Shown piece after piece: positions 28,946 through 39,243 of a stretch of DNA of 64,000 bases; the stretch's first letter is position 1, and each line of letters begins with the position of its first letter. The position numbers and the translations under genes were made by a program. The stretch is from Oceanicola sp. 502str15 (GTDB lineage: Bacteria > Pseudomonadota > Alphaproteobacteria > Rhodobacterales > Rhodobacteraceae): the NCBI RefSeq assembly GCF_024105635.1, contig NZ_WYDQ01000001.1, positions 310,001 through 374,000 on the forward strand, given 5' to 3'. Below the pieces are notes generated by a model, which was given only the letters and a program-made list of their open reading frames with translations, was not told the origin of the DNA and made no database searches.

Positions 28946-29372
28946 CCTGACACTTGGCGTGGTTCGGCGTTTCGGTTGAAGGGCAACGCGTGCGGGGTTT
29001 GAGCTGTTGTGTTCCAAATGGCTCGCTTGCGCAGCGCTTCCTTGAACCTTGATCGACTCTTGGTCCGCCACTTTGGTGATGCGGACTCTCTTGAAACTGC
29101 GAAAGAAGCCAGTGTCGCGTCAGGAGGCGACAGAGCAGGCGCGGTTTCGCCGCTTCTCAGTGTCCCTGATAAGGCATTCGCAATTTACGATTATGACTAT
29201 CGGGAGCTCGATGCGGGTGTGGCTCGGGAGGAGGGCCAATTGCCGTAGATGCCTTCGCAGCATCTGGCCAAGCCTTCACAAATAAGCGCCGAGTCCGTTC
29301 ACTATGCCGAAGCCGGGCGTTCGCAGCCGGACTTGTGAGCAAGCTTTGATTTTGGTGAAGGGGAATGCCTGC
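28946..29372. other. Gene-free stretch
   Basis: About 430 bases between frcK and tRNA-Gly with visibly lower GC than its flanks. Several short open frames exist on both strands but none has a ribosome site, family motif or plausible composition. It could be a decayed remnant. I see no recognisable insertion-sequence ends. Confidence 0.5.
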
Positions 29373-36380: not shown

Positions 36381-36614
36381 GGGATCCTCGGGTCGGCCCG
36401 AGGGTGATGGATGTGGTGGGGGATCCTCGGGTCGAGCCCGAGGATGACAGTTGTGGCGAGGGGGCCTCGGGACGCGCCCGGGGATGACGGTTGTGGTGGC
36501 GGGGGATCCTCGGGTCGGGCCCGGGGATGACGGATGTGGCGGGGGATCCTTGGGTCGAGCCCGAGGATGACGGTTGTGGCGAGGGGGGCCTCGCGACGAG
36601 CCCGGGGATGACGG
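36381..36614. repeat. REP-like palindromic repeat cluster (about six copies)
   Basis: Six tandem copies, at roughly 40-bp intervals, of a palindromic element with core ATCCTCGGGTC-n-GCCCGAGGATGAC. Copies begin near 36382, 36420, 36462, 36502, 36541 and 36585; the third and last carry variant arms. Elements with this core are widespread REPs in alphaproteobacteria. They fill most of the 409-bp gap between the convergent helicase and epimerase genes, in which I see no gene. Confidence 0.8.
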
Positions 36615-37528: not shown

Positions 37529-37607
37529 GGGGGCCTCCTTGGTTTGAGGCGCAGATTACCCGGGGGCGACGGGGTGCGAAAGCGGAAGGCGGACTGGTTG
37601 GGAGAGT

Positions 37608-37683
37608 TCCTCGGGTCAGGCCCGAGGATGACAGTAGAGGAGGGGCTAGGGAGAGATCCTCGGGTCAGGCCCGAGGATGACGG
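37608..37683. repeat. REP-like palindromic repeats, two copies
   Basis: Two copies (37608-37633 and 37655-37683) of the same TCCTCGGGTCAGGCCCGAGGA palindrome family seen beyond the epimerase gene. They separate the epimerase promoter from the end of the hairpin array. Confidence 0.8.
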
Positions 37684-37693
37684 CCCGGGCCCG

Positions 37694-37737
37694 AAAATGA
37701 AAAGCGGCGATGCTCGGGAGGAGGTGAGCATCGCCGC
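37694..37737 (-). terminator. Terminal hairpin of the small-RNA array with T-rich tail
   Basis: Last hairpin of the array on the minus strand: 12-bp perfect stem GCGGCGATGCTC/GAGCATCGCCGC (37704-37737), loop ACCTCCTCCC, followed directly by TTTTCATTTT (37694-37703). It is the only one of the 24 hairpins with a following T tract, so it probably ends the whole transcript while also being the 3' half of unit 12. Confidence 0.75.
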
Positions 37738-37770
37738 CAATATCAGATCGCCCAGGGAGGAGGTCGGGCG
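37704..37770 (-). ncRNA. CcsR-like small RNA, unit 12 (promoter-distal)
   Basis: Hairpin B at 37749-37770 (5-bp stem CGCCC/GGGCG) and hairpin A at 37704-37737 (12-bp perfect stem), both with CCTCCTCCC in the loop on the minus strand. Hairpin A doubles as the terminator. Confidence 0.72.
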
Positions 37771-37800
37771 CCTGAATTCCGGTCCCTTCCGGGGAAGGGT

Positions 37801-37870
37801 GGGGCGGCTGCCTCGGGAGGAGGTGAGGCGCCGCCCCTATGCTTCCGGCTGCCCAGGGAGGAGGACGGGC
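37801..37870 (-). ncRNA. CcsR-like small RNA, unit 11
   Basis: Hairpin B at 37851-37870 (GCCC/GGGC) and hairpin A at 37801-37837 (13 pairs with one bulged T: GGGGCGGC plus GCCTC). Both loops carry CCTCCTCCC. The stems differ from all other units. An extra hairpin without the motif (CCCTTC/GAAGGG, 37784-37799) lies between this unit and unit 12. Confidence 0.72.
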
Positions 37871-37891
37871 GCACCGAAATCGAATTGGGTC

Positions 37892-37958
37892 GGCGGGCAC
37901 CCCGGGAGGAGGATGGGGGCCCGCCTGATATCGGGTGGCCCAGGGAGGAGGACGGGCC
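37892..37958 (-). ncRNA. CcsR-like small RNA, unit 10
   Basis: Hairpin B at 37937-37958 (GGCCC/GGGCC) and hairpin A at 37892-37925 (GGCGGGC plus CCCC, 11 pairs with a bulged A). Loops carry CCTCCTCCC. Stem sequences are specific to this unit. Confidence 0.72.
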
Positions 37959-37974
37959 GTCCGAAACCGAATTG

Positions 37975-38042
37975 GGTGGCGACATGCCCGGGAGGAGGTG
38001 GGCTGCCGCCGGATCTCGAAGGCCCAGGGAGGAGGAGAGGGC
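37975..38042 (-). ncRNA. CcsR-like small RNA, unit 9 (type Y)
   Basis: Hairpin B at 38022-38042 (GCCC/GGGC) and hairpin A at 37975-38010 (GCCC inner and GGTGGC/GCCGCC outer stem). Both loops carry CCTCCTCCC. Type Y unit of the 177-bp block. Confidence 0.72.
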
Positions 38043-38062
38043 GCTCCGAAACCGAAACTTTG

Positions 38063-38135
38063 GGCGGCGACGATGCTCGGGAGGAGGTGAGCATCGCCGC
38101 CTGATTTTCGGGGCGCCCAGGGAGGAGGTCGGGCG
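38063..38135 (-). ncRNA. CcsR-like small RNA, unit 8 (type X)
   Basis: Hairpin B at 38114-38135 (CGCCC/GGGCG) and hairpin A at 38063-38101 (8-bp CGATGCTC stem, 3-base bulge, GGCGG/CCGCC). Loops carry CCTCCTCCC. Confidence 0.72.
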
Positions 38136-38151
38136 GACCGAAACCGAATTG

Positions 38152-38219
38152 GGTGGCGACATGCCCGGGAGGAGGTGGGCTGCCGCCGGATCTCGAAGGC
38201 CCAGGGAGGAGGAGAGGGC
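38152..38219 (-). ncRNA. CcsR-like small RNA, unit 7 (type Y)
   Basis: Hairpin B at 38199-38219 and hairpin A at 38152-38187, nearly identical to unit 9. Both loops carry CCTCCTCCC. Confidence 0.72.
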
Positions 38220-38242
38220 GCTCCGAAACCGAAACTTTGGGC

Positions 38243-38312
38243 GGCGGCGATGCTCGGGAGGAGGTGAGCATCGCCGCCTGATTTTCGGGGCGCCCAGGGA
38301 GGAGGTCGGGCG
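38243..38312 (-). ncRNA. CcsR-like small RNA, unit 6 (type X)
   Basis: Hairpin B at 38291-38312 and hairpin A at 38243-38278. Here the A stem is 13 bp and perfect (GGCGGCGATGCTC with its complement), without the bulge of the sister units. Loops carry CCTCCTCCC. Confidence 0.72.
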
Positions 38313-38328
38313 GACCGAAACTGAATTG

Positions 38329-38397
38329 GGTGGCGACAGGCCCGGGAGGAGGTGGGCTGCCGCCGGATCTCGAAGAGCCCAGCGAGGAGGAGAGGGC
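38329..38397 (-). ncRNA. CcsR-like small RNA, unit 5 (type Y, variant loop)
   Basis: Hairpin A at 38329-38364 has the normal loop. Hairpin B at 38377-38397 has one loop substitution, so the minus strand reads CCTCCTCGC instead of CCTCCTCCC: the only imperfect motif in the array. Confidence 0.7.
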
Positions 38398-38417
38398 GCT
38401 CCGAAACCGAAACTTTG

Positions 38418-38490
38418 GGCGGCGACGATGCTCGGGAGGAGGTGAGCATCGCCGCCTGATTTTCGGGGCGCCCAGGGAGGAGGTCGGGCG
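38418..38490 (-). ncRNA. CcsR-like small RNA, unit 4 (type X)
   Basis: Hairpin B at 38469-38490 and hairpin A at 38418-38456 (8-bp stem plus outer GGCGG/CCGCC). Loops carry CCTCCTCCC. Nearly identical to units 2 and 8 in its A hairpin. Confidence 0.72.
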
Positions 38491-38506
38491 GACCGAAACT
38501 GAATTG

Positions 38507-38574
38507 GGTGGCGACAGGCCCGGGAGGAGGTGGGCTGCCGCCGGATCTCGAAGGCCCAGGGAGGAGGAGAGGGC
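38507..38574 (-). ncRNA. CcsR-like small RNA, unit 3 (type Y)
   Basis: Hairpin B at 38554-38574 and hairpin A at 38507-38542, type Y stems. Loops carry CCTCCTCCC. Confidence 0.72.
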
Positions 38575-38594
38575 GCTCCGAAACCGAAACTTTG

Positions 38595-38670
38595 GGCGGC
38601 GACGATGCTCGGGAGGAGGTGAGCATCGCCGCCTAATCTCAGAACGCCCAGGGAGGAGGTCGGACGTTCT
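38595..38670 (-). ncRNA. CcsR-like small RNA, unit 2 (type X, divergent B stem)
   Basis: Hairpin B at 38641-38670 has a stem of its own (AGAACG/CGTTCT outer arms), while hairpin A at 38595-38633 is the standard type X stem. Both loops carry CCTCCTCCC. Confidence 0.72.
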
Positions 38671-38716
38671 GATCTCGTTGTCTCGTCCCCGCCGTTCTGG
38701 CGGGGTAAGCGGCGAG

Positions 38717-38780
38717 GGCACCGGGAGGAGGATGGTGCCGTTGCCGTAACGAAGAGCCCAGGGAGGAGGACGGGCCCTTC
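38717..38780 (-). ncRNA. CcsR-like small RNA, unit 1 (promoter-proximal)
   Basis: Begins 12 bases after the DUF1127 stop. Hairpin B at 38751-38780 (GAAG/CTTC outer, GCCC/GGGC inner) and hairpin A at 38717-38739 (perfect 6-bp GGCACC/GGTGCC). Loops carry CCTCCTCCC. Stems differ from all other units. CcsR RNAs of Rhodobacter sphaeroides are likewise two-hairpin RNAs downstream of a DUF1127 gene. Confidence 0.75.
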
Positions 38781-38792
38781 AGTGTTCCTGTG

Positions 38793-39008
38793 TCAGGCGC
38801 CGTATGCGGCCTGGAAGGCGACCGAGCGGATCATGGAGGGCGCGATGCCGAGGTCGGCGAGGTCGCGGTTGCTCAGGGCCTGAAGTTCGCGGAGCGTCTG
38901 ACGGTAGACGCGGCGTTTTGCTGCGTTCTCGCGGCGGGCCTCGAAGAAGGCTTCGATGCGGCCCATGATGCCGGTGGTCGCGGTGTTCTGTGCGGTTGCG
39001 TAAGCCAT
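38793..39008 (-). CDS. DUF1127 small protein (CcaF1-like)
   Basis: 71 aa. The C-terminal half is a DUF1127 motif (LRELQALSNRDLADLGIAPS, then MIRSVA), preceded by an Arg-rich helix (FEARRENAAKRRVYRQT). In Rhodobacter sphaeroides the DUF1127 protein encoded before the CcsR RNAs (CcaF1) is an RNA-binding protein that affects their maturation, under heat-shock sigma control; this is from memory of that system. AAGGA precedes the ATG by 10 bases. The hairpin array starts 12 bases after its stop, so it is most likely the leader cistron of the precursor. Confidence 0.88.
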   Translation of the reverse strand: MAYATAQNTATTGIMGRIEAFFEARRENAAKRRVYRQTLRELQALSNRDLADLGIAPSMIRSVAFQAAYGA

Positions 39009-39091
39009 GGTGGCTGTGTCCTTAGTGGTGTCGTACCTGTGTGGGCCGTTCTGTGCCCGTTGCTTGAGATGAACTTAGGGAATTGCTGCAC

Positions 39092-39128
39092 CTGCATAAA
39101 GCCCTTTCGCCGCAACGCGGCTATGCAG
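39092..39128. promoter_or_regulatory. Long imperfect inverted repeat upstream of the DUF1127 gene
   Basis: CTGCATA (39092-39098) pairs with TATGCAG (39122-39128) and GCC/GGC continue the stem. A second inverted repeat, CTACGTT/AACGTAG with an 18-base spacer, lies at 39171-39202. Both are in the 235-bp divergent region between the DUF1127 gene and mrp, so either could be a regulator site. I could not assign a sigma-factor promoter confidently. Confidence 0.35.
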
Positions 39129-39243
39129 TGAGGGAATAGGTAAAAGGGGTGGAGATTCAGCGCGTTAAGCCTACGTTTTAGGCAATAAAAGAAATAACGT
39201 AGCGTCACTTGTGGCGCCTTCCAATCAAGGAGAAGAGCGAAAA

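Follow-up and report, generated by a model that had tools for sequence, protein, structure and literature searches.

The window analysed here is a 64,000-nucleotide (nt) stretch of the genome of Oceanicola sp. 502str15 (contig NZ_WYDQ01000001.1, positions 310,001 to 374,000), and on its minus strand a short DUF1127 gene is followed by a long array of hairpins that appear to be anti-Shine-Dalgarno (anti-SD) small RNAs (sRNAs). The gene (38793-39008), which the original prediction had placed ahead of the array, encodes 71 amino acids and matches Pfam PF06568 (E 1.5e-12); this match and synteny with Cereibacter johrii point to a counterpart of CcaF1 (RSP_6037) of Rhodobacter sphaeroides. Behind it lie 24 hairpins (38787-37699), the first loop motif being 23 nt from the DUF1127 stop codon. 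The loop motifs span 38769 to 37716 and comprise 23 exact copies of CCTCCTCCC and a single one-base variant, CCTCCTCGC, at 38390-38382, a recount that agrees with the original prediction in coordinates, strand and number. Because the spacing of the motifs alternates, with 37-41 nt inside units and 47-72 nt between units, 12 two-hairpin units are the natural reading, as had also been predicted. Dinucleotide shuffles of the window contain CCTCCTCCC 1.73 times on average and five times at most. One extra copy lies in the window at 29226, outside the array, and 23 of the 86 occurrences genome-wide are in the array, as are all 20 exact adjacent motif pairs of the whole genome. Fifteen of the 24 loops start with ACCTCCT, like the host genome's own 16S end (GGATCACCTCCTTTC).

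The predicted structures place these motifs in single-stranded sequence. When minimum-energy folds are computed unit by unit, 24/24 loops are fully unpaired, with z from -2.9 to -7.0 across the 12 units, and a single fold of the whole stretch leaves 22/24 fully unpaired. At a relaxed threshold, the Rfam model RF02791 (CcsR1) finds 12 matches between 37500 and 39200, one per unit and each full length (E 4.2e-10 to 0.011), with scores of 22.5-47.5 bits that all lie below the curated cut-off. In order from the DUF1127 gene, these CcsR-like units are unit 1 (hairpins 1 and 2; 38707-38787, loops at 38769 and 38731; 41.7 bits), unit 2 (38594-38676; 38.4 bits), unit 3 (38503-38584; 25.2 bits), unit 4 (38417-38499; 41.5 bits), unit 5 (38325-38407; 22.5 bits), whose first loop is the sole variant CCTCCTCGC, unit 6 (38239-38321; 44.9 bits), unit 7 (38148-38229; 23.8 bits), unit 8 (38062-38144; 41.5 bits), unit 9 (37971-38052; 23.8 bits), unit 10 (37886-37967; 37.1 bits), unit 11 (37796-37881; 36.9 bits) and unit 12 (37699-37779; 47.5 bits). 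The same model applied as a control to C. johrii, which we take to be a close relative of R. sphaeroides, scores unit 1 of its eight hairpins at 106 bits and units 2-4 at 39-47 bits, the latter below 65.3. The original prediction of CcsR/cuckoo-type anti-SD RNAs behind a ccaF1-like gene is borne out by synteny, by these unit-by-unit matches and by the C. johrii control.

The gene and its surroundings also speak to the identity of the locus. The DUF1127 protein has its best named relative, at 89% identity, in Vannielia litorea, and the nearest named loci include Vannielia ones; on protein and locus identity, we assign the ccaF1-CcsR operon described here to a Vannielia species. In a set of 80 named DUF1127 loci, the best 80 of 496 confirmed relatives, a divergent mrp gene lies at most 1.5 kilobases upstream in 69, C. 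johrii included, and about 1.6 kilobases away in two; none was seen in nine, at least two of which are truncated on the upstream side (L139, L169). The divergent mrp adjoins the locus in the window, in the Vannielia loci L098, L099 and L100, and in C. johrii. Going by this gene order, the locus and the ccaF1-CcsR1-4 operon of Rhodobacter (Cereibacter) sphaeroides are syntenic counterparts. The two share a DUF1127 gene, then two-hairpin sRNAs with CCUCCUCCC loops and, probably, a terminator at the end, and the divergent mrp neighbour of C. johrii is found here as well. They differ in that the R. sphaeroides operon has four units, a number the original prediction gave correctly (PMC10253847, excerpt), and the present array 12; in that the stems here have diverged, giving the Rfam scores of 22-48 bits; and in that the internal units here come from recent 177-base-pair (bp) duplication.

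Two related groups of RNAs help to place the array. Adjacent hairpins, a common CCUCCUCCC loop and variable stems also characterise the cuckoo RNA family and CIN1 loci, reportedly the subject of Reinkensmeier and Giegerich in 2015. As here, CIN1 loci are linked to short DUF1127 genes in alphaproteobacteria (PMC10253847, excerpt), but a single cuckoo RNA has two to four hairpins (PMC4504443, excerpt) rather than the 24 in succession seen here. The alpha-r14/NfeR1 RNAs of Sinorhizobium (RF02344, ar14; SmelA075, SmelA099) likewise carry an identical loop motif in each hairpin on variable stems; they differ in having three or four hairpins (PMC10746234 and PMC3927594, excerpts), and NfeR1 is served by a promoter of its own that bears a sigma-70 signature (PMC10746234, excerpt), whereas the array here follows a DUF1127 gene. 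In copy number the array is a striking example of a known system; it is not a new kind of system.

The stems themselves show evidence of maintained pairing. The last hairpin of the array has 13 pairs and is followed by TTTT (37703-37700), and the second hairpin of unit 12 together with this run is likely a Rho-independent terminator; 54 of 75 named loci likewise have TTTT soon after their last motif. In the A-before/G-after register, 23 distinct last hairpins (from the window and 25 named loci, L127 included) are paired in 253 of 253 cells, with two-sided changes in 9 of 11 pairs and a value that 0 of 500 shuffles reach; this register is the whole of one loop class among the 75 last hairpins, a choice that favours pairing beside the loop. 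In the larger T-T class, 32 distinct last hairpins pair in 257 of 288 cells, and 8 of 9 pairs change on both sides, in a pairing register that was picked after counting and is shifted by one left base from the register guessed first; four alternative registers give 120 to 229 of 288 cells and the first guess 168 of 320. Eleven of the 75 fall outside both register classes.

This covariation also bears on the idea that the stretch encodes a repetitive protein, or is a DNA repeat with no role as RNA. Long open reading frames do run on both strands, up to 326 amino acids on the minus and 537 on the plus strand, and the period of 177 bp is divisible by three. One module step, however, measures 178 nt and breaks the frame, and stops interrupt all six frames in six of the seven Vannielia arrays, the host's among them (the seventh, G398, has one stop-free antisense frame). 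Moreover, the stems covary, the loops are kept, and CcsR1 and ar14 models match below cut-off. We give the idea practically no credence, and coding through the array was rejected on the 178-nt step, the stops in every frame of those six arrays and the RNA covariation.

Comparison of the units with one another shows how the array grew. A module of 177 bp, made up of two units and four hairpins, was detected with Tandem Repeats Finder in 4.2 copies with 96% matches (37921-38663); in its first copy, unit 3 (98% identical to units 5 and 7) is the first part and unit 4 (99% identical to units 6 and 8) the second. Units 3, 5, 7 and 9 are mutually 96-100% alike, units 7 and 9 being identical over the compared span, and units 4, 6 and 8 are likewise mutually 96-100% alike. 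Units 1, 2, 11 and 12, by contrast with these internal copies, are closest to the same-end units of other species; unit 11 is the positional match of the penultimate units in other Vannielia and 97% identical to unit 9 of the 10 in genome G396. Genome G394, which also has a 12-unit array, duplicates other internal units, with units 4 and 6 identical and units 7 and 9 identical; because different internal units were duplicated, the two arrays expanded separately. Genomes G396 and G300 are near-identical (7/10 units) and were counted as one event. These alignments show that the array grew by recent tandem copying of the 177-bp two-unit module.

Short reads resolve near-identical 177-bp copies poorly, and the repeat number could in principle be an artefact of assembly. 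The array is, however, contained in a contig of 4,239,389 bases, in a 4.44-Mb genome made up of two contigs, and relatives on contigs longer than 3 Mb carry 24, 20, 20 and 16 hairpins, in arrays whose internal units differ, G396 and G300 again not being independent. The host copies also differ from one another by point changes, including the single loop variant, and we regard an artefact as very improbable.

The loops are constant between species. When orthologous end units are compared across five species, none of the 72 loop columns varies, against 71 of 263 flank columns (Fisher p 5e-9). With the more distant G398 added, 5 of 72 loop columns and 110 of 264 flank columns vary, and because 8/8 loops of G398 are exact we read these five columns as alignment shifts. 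Only one divergent loop occurs among 126 Vannielia loops, in a count whose selection pattern let only that position vary; a separate search found no further one-mismatch loops inside Vannielia arrays. Our reading of these alignments is that selection held the loop sequence fixed during duplication.

How unusual the array is depends on the comparison. Two or more motif positions lie downstream in 78/80 named DUF1127 loci (76/80 if exact motifs alone are counted), with a median of 8 and a maximum of 23. The 687 positions behind these figures include one-mismatch loops with a stem (38/687) and exact motifs regardless of stem, and 659/687 have at least four stem pairs. In a family sample of 394 genomes from 393 genera, the host genus being represented twice, we counted adjacent exact motif pairs; 298/394 genomes have at least one, 16/394 have 10 or more with both strands taken together (read from the table), and only G165, with 25 pairs, exceeds the host genome's 20. 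The reversed-pattern control is nonzero in some of these genomes, with 8 against 10 in G311. In a sample of the class, 15/289 genomes have any motif pair, four of them from the same family, although diverged members may escape a count that is limited to the exact motif and a set spacing. Seven Vannielia genomes have 12, 12, 10, 10, 8, 7 and 4 units, and G394, which has 24 motifs, exceeds the host genome's 20 exact pairs with 22. The host array sits atop a graded distribution of unit number. 'Expanded', as the original prediction called the array, holds with respect to R. sphaeroides but is a relative term, since unit number varies continuously (26 motifs in G165, 24 in G394, 23 in Loktanella atrilutea); that the array is unique to the host genome was rejected on these larger or similar arrays.

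Some details of these other arrays are of interest in their own right. The 26 exact motifs of G165 (L092) form one array downstream of a DUF1127 gene in that genome. Most of this array consists of a three-hairpin module about 140 bp long, a size unlike that in Vannielia. Loktanella atrilutea (L161) has 23 hairpins behind DUF1127 with four-hairpin periodicity. Its ar14 match scores 68.1 bits and clears the Rfam cut-off, so that ar14 instead of CcsR1 may be the family to which some Rhodobacteraceae arrays are assigned. Among the literature matches listed we recognised no paper on a CcsR array in Vannielia; the cuckoo survey may give numbers for other genera.

Such variation invites the explanation that copy number is selectively neutral, with unequal recombination between near-identical modules changing the count and few units sufficing for function. 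We give this somewhat less than an even chance; it is compatible with a function for the sRNAs and concerns only why there are 12. The differing unit numbers of the relatives, copies alike enough to record very recent events, and middle units that change as end units are kept would all fit neutrality. At least seven units in six of the seven Vannielia genomes, against four in G398 and C. johrii, fit it less well, as does the single divergent loop among 126, though recent copying explains part of that constancy.

What the loops would do is suggested by calculated pairing, for which energies are bare, without loop or context terms. On GGGAGGAGG, the loop forms a duplex of -18.6 kcal/mol against -12.9 for the host 16S tail, and on the consensus SD UAGGAGGUGA one of -11.5 to -14.5 against -15.6 kcal/mol for the 16S tail. 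Being stronger than 16S on the first and weaker on the second, the loop would seem suited to selectivity rather than a general block. The string GGGAGGAGG-N3-12-ATG occurs at 17 places in the host genome versus 2 for the reversed control, and at 68 versus 22 across seven genomes of the genus, an excess that is weak evidence because a strong SD would precede genes in any case. Of the 17 candidates, all nine compared with Pfam contain a domain, and the remaining eight are mostly short. One candidate target, an ABM-domain gene, has a full-length site that recurs between genomes; the gene was recognised by its translated open reading frame in G000, G394 and G396, and G395 and G300 share the identical site string. 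The first 16S-tail pattern had no match in the host genome; a shorter pattern of the 15-base 16S 3' end matches at one place (C1:2721305), which suggests a single rRNA operon in the assembly.

Published work on related RNAs is consistent with repression by pairing. NfeR1 of Sinorhizobium represses ntrB by pairing of the same loop motif at the translation start, and a variant with all three loops changed gives no ntrB repression (PMC10746234, excerpt). Blocking of ribosome-binding sites by SmelA075, SmelA099 and an R. sphaeroides RNA was proposed already in 2011 (PMC3927594, section 2.7, excerpt), and CcsR1-4 target flhR mRNA in R. sphaeroides (PMC8307010, excerpt). It is also conceivable that the array is mainly a sink titrating CcaF1, Hfq or purine-rich RNA, with extra units soaking up more. 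A sink would fit a unit number that is high and variable while the loop stays fixed, and likewise the few full-length start-site complements (17 in the genome), few of which recur between species. The protein encoded next to the array also has an R. sphaeroides counterpart that binds RNA and influences CcsR levels in trans (PMC10253847, excerpt). Exact anti-SD loop letters are, on the other hand, better explained by base pairing with RNA than by protein binding alone, and the NfeR1 loop motif acts on mRNAs by pairing. We consider a sink improbable.

We propose instead, with a probability of roughly 0.87, that the array encodes stress-induced anti-SD sRNAs whose dosage was raised by duplication. 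Transcription, processing, stress induction, target repression and any dosage effect we infer by analogy. In R. sphaeroides, ccaF1 and CcsR1-4 are co-transcribed from an RpoHI/RpoHII promoter and processed by RNase E, and CcaF1 binds RNA and alters CcsR levels in trans (PMC10253847, excerpt). Similarly, one stress-induced transcript would here carry the small RNA-binding DUF1127 protein and the array, with the 12 two-hairpin CcsR-type sRNAs in its 3' untranslated region. RNase E, helped by the DUF1127 protein, would cut the sRNAs out, and the last hairpin would terminate the transcript. Each sRNA would then expose two single-stranded CCUCCUCCC loops for pairing with GGGAGGAGG-like ribosome-binding sites, and, as the experiments on Sinorhizobium NfeR1/alpha-r14 suggest, this pairing would block translation of selected mRNAs. 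Unit number rose in Vannielia by tandem duplication of the two-unit module, and 12 rather than four units would place more loops on each transcript.

Several results weigh against this proposal. None of the 12 units reaches the RF02791 gathering cut-off of 65.3 bits, the best scoring 47.5, and at the curated cut-off Rfam reports only a tRNA in the whole window; RF02344 (ar14) gives sub-threshold matches across the array, the best at 46.1 bits against a cut-off of 58.8 bits. The covariance search suggested in the original prediction thus yields nothing at curated thresholds and 12 matches beneath them, one per unit, much as for units 2-4 of C. johrii. Because those units fail too, the RF02791 cut-off seems tuned to CcsR1 itself, and because no unit here reaches it we place the units only in the wider CcsR-type/cuckoo class, not in a curated Rfam family. 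No RpoH promoter was identified by a promoter scan and upstream alignment, which gave upstream conservation only. RNase E sites are not evident, since between-unit linkers of the host array are no richer in A+T (0.34) than within-unit linkers (0.34). The motif TTTCGG, found in 9/11 between-unit and 0/12 within-unit linkers of the host array, is only suggestive of a processing mark; in G398 it occurs in 0/3 between-unit and 1/4 within-unit linkers. Full-length GGGAGGAGG start-site complements are scarce, and most of them are not shared among Vannielia species. As for termination, TTTT is absent at the inspected position in 21 of 75 named loci. A scan for terminators also listed none on the minus strand, although the 10-nt loop here exceeds the limit of 8 set in that scan.

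Sequences on either side of the operon are also conserved or repeated. Upstream of the DUF1127 gene, alignment of 18 regions from Vannielia and other Rhodobacteraceae reveals a conserved block, TGCATAGCCGC...TGCAGGTGCAGCA (39075-39141, minus strand), which is kept from Vannielia to Cereibacter and which we presume to be a promoter or operator; the promoter scan found no sigma-70 site upstream of this gene. The block holds repeated TGC...GCA half-sites, which may resemble PhaR operators. Beyond the array, five near-copies of the palindrome TCATCCTCGGGC-N-TGACCCGAGGAT, like a repetitive extragenic palindrome (REP), lie at 37607-37680 and 36423-36570 on the minus strand, with 0 expected by chance. 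They flank an epimerase gene on both sides, and the palindrome directly follows the array in 3/7 Vannielia arrays.

Importantly, the RF02791 cut-off misses 12/12 units here and 3/4 in C. johrii, which probably leaves arrays of this kind under-annotated. The Vannielia genomes offer a natural copy-number series within one genus, from 4 through 7, 8 and 10 to 12 units, which extends elsewhere in the family to 26 motifs in one array and allows a direct test of whether anti-SD sRNA dosage matters. A more speculative idea, which we hold to be doubtful, is that the Vannielia CcsR array is an evolvable dosage dial, set by recombination through independent module amplifications in at least two species while the anti-SD loops stay fixed. 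If true, it would tune how strongly one stress transcript outcompetes ribosomes for GGGAGGAGG-type start sites, and the array would be a selective translational brake rather than an ordinary set of sRNAs.

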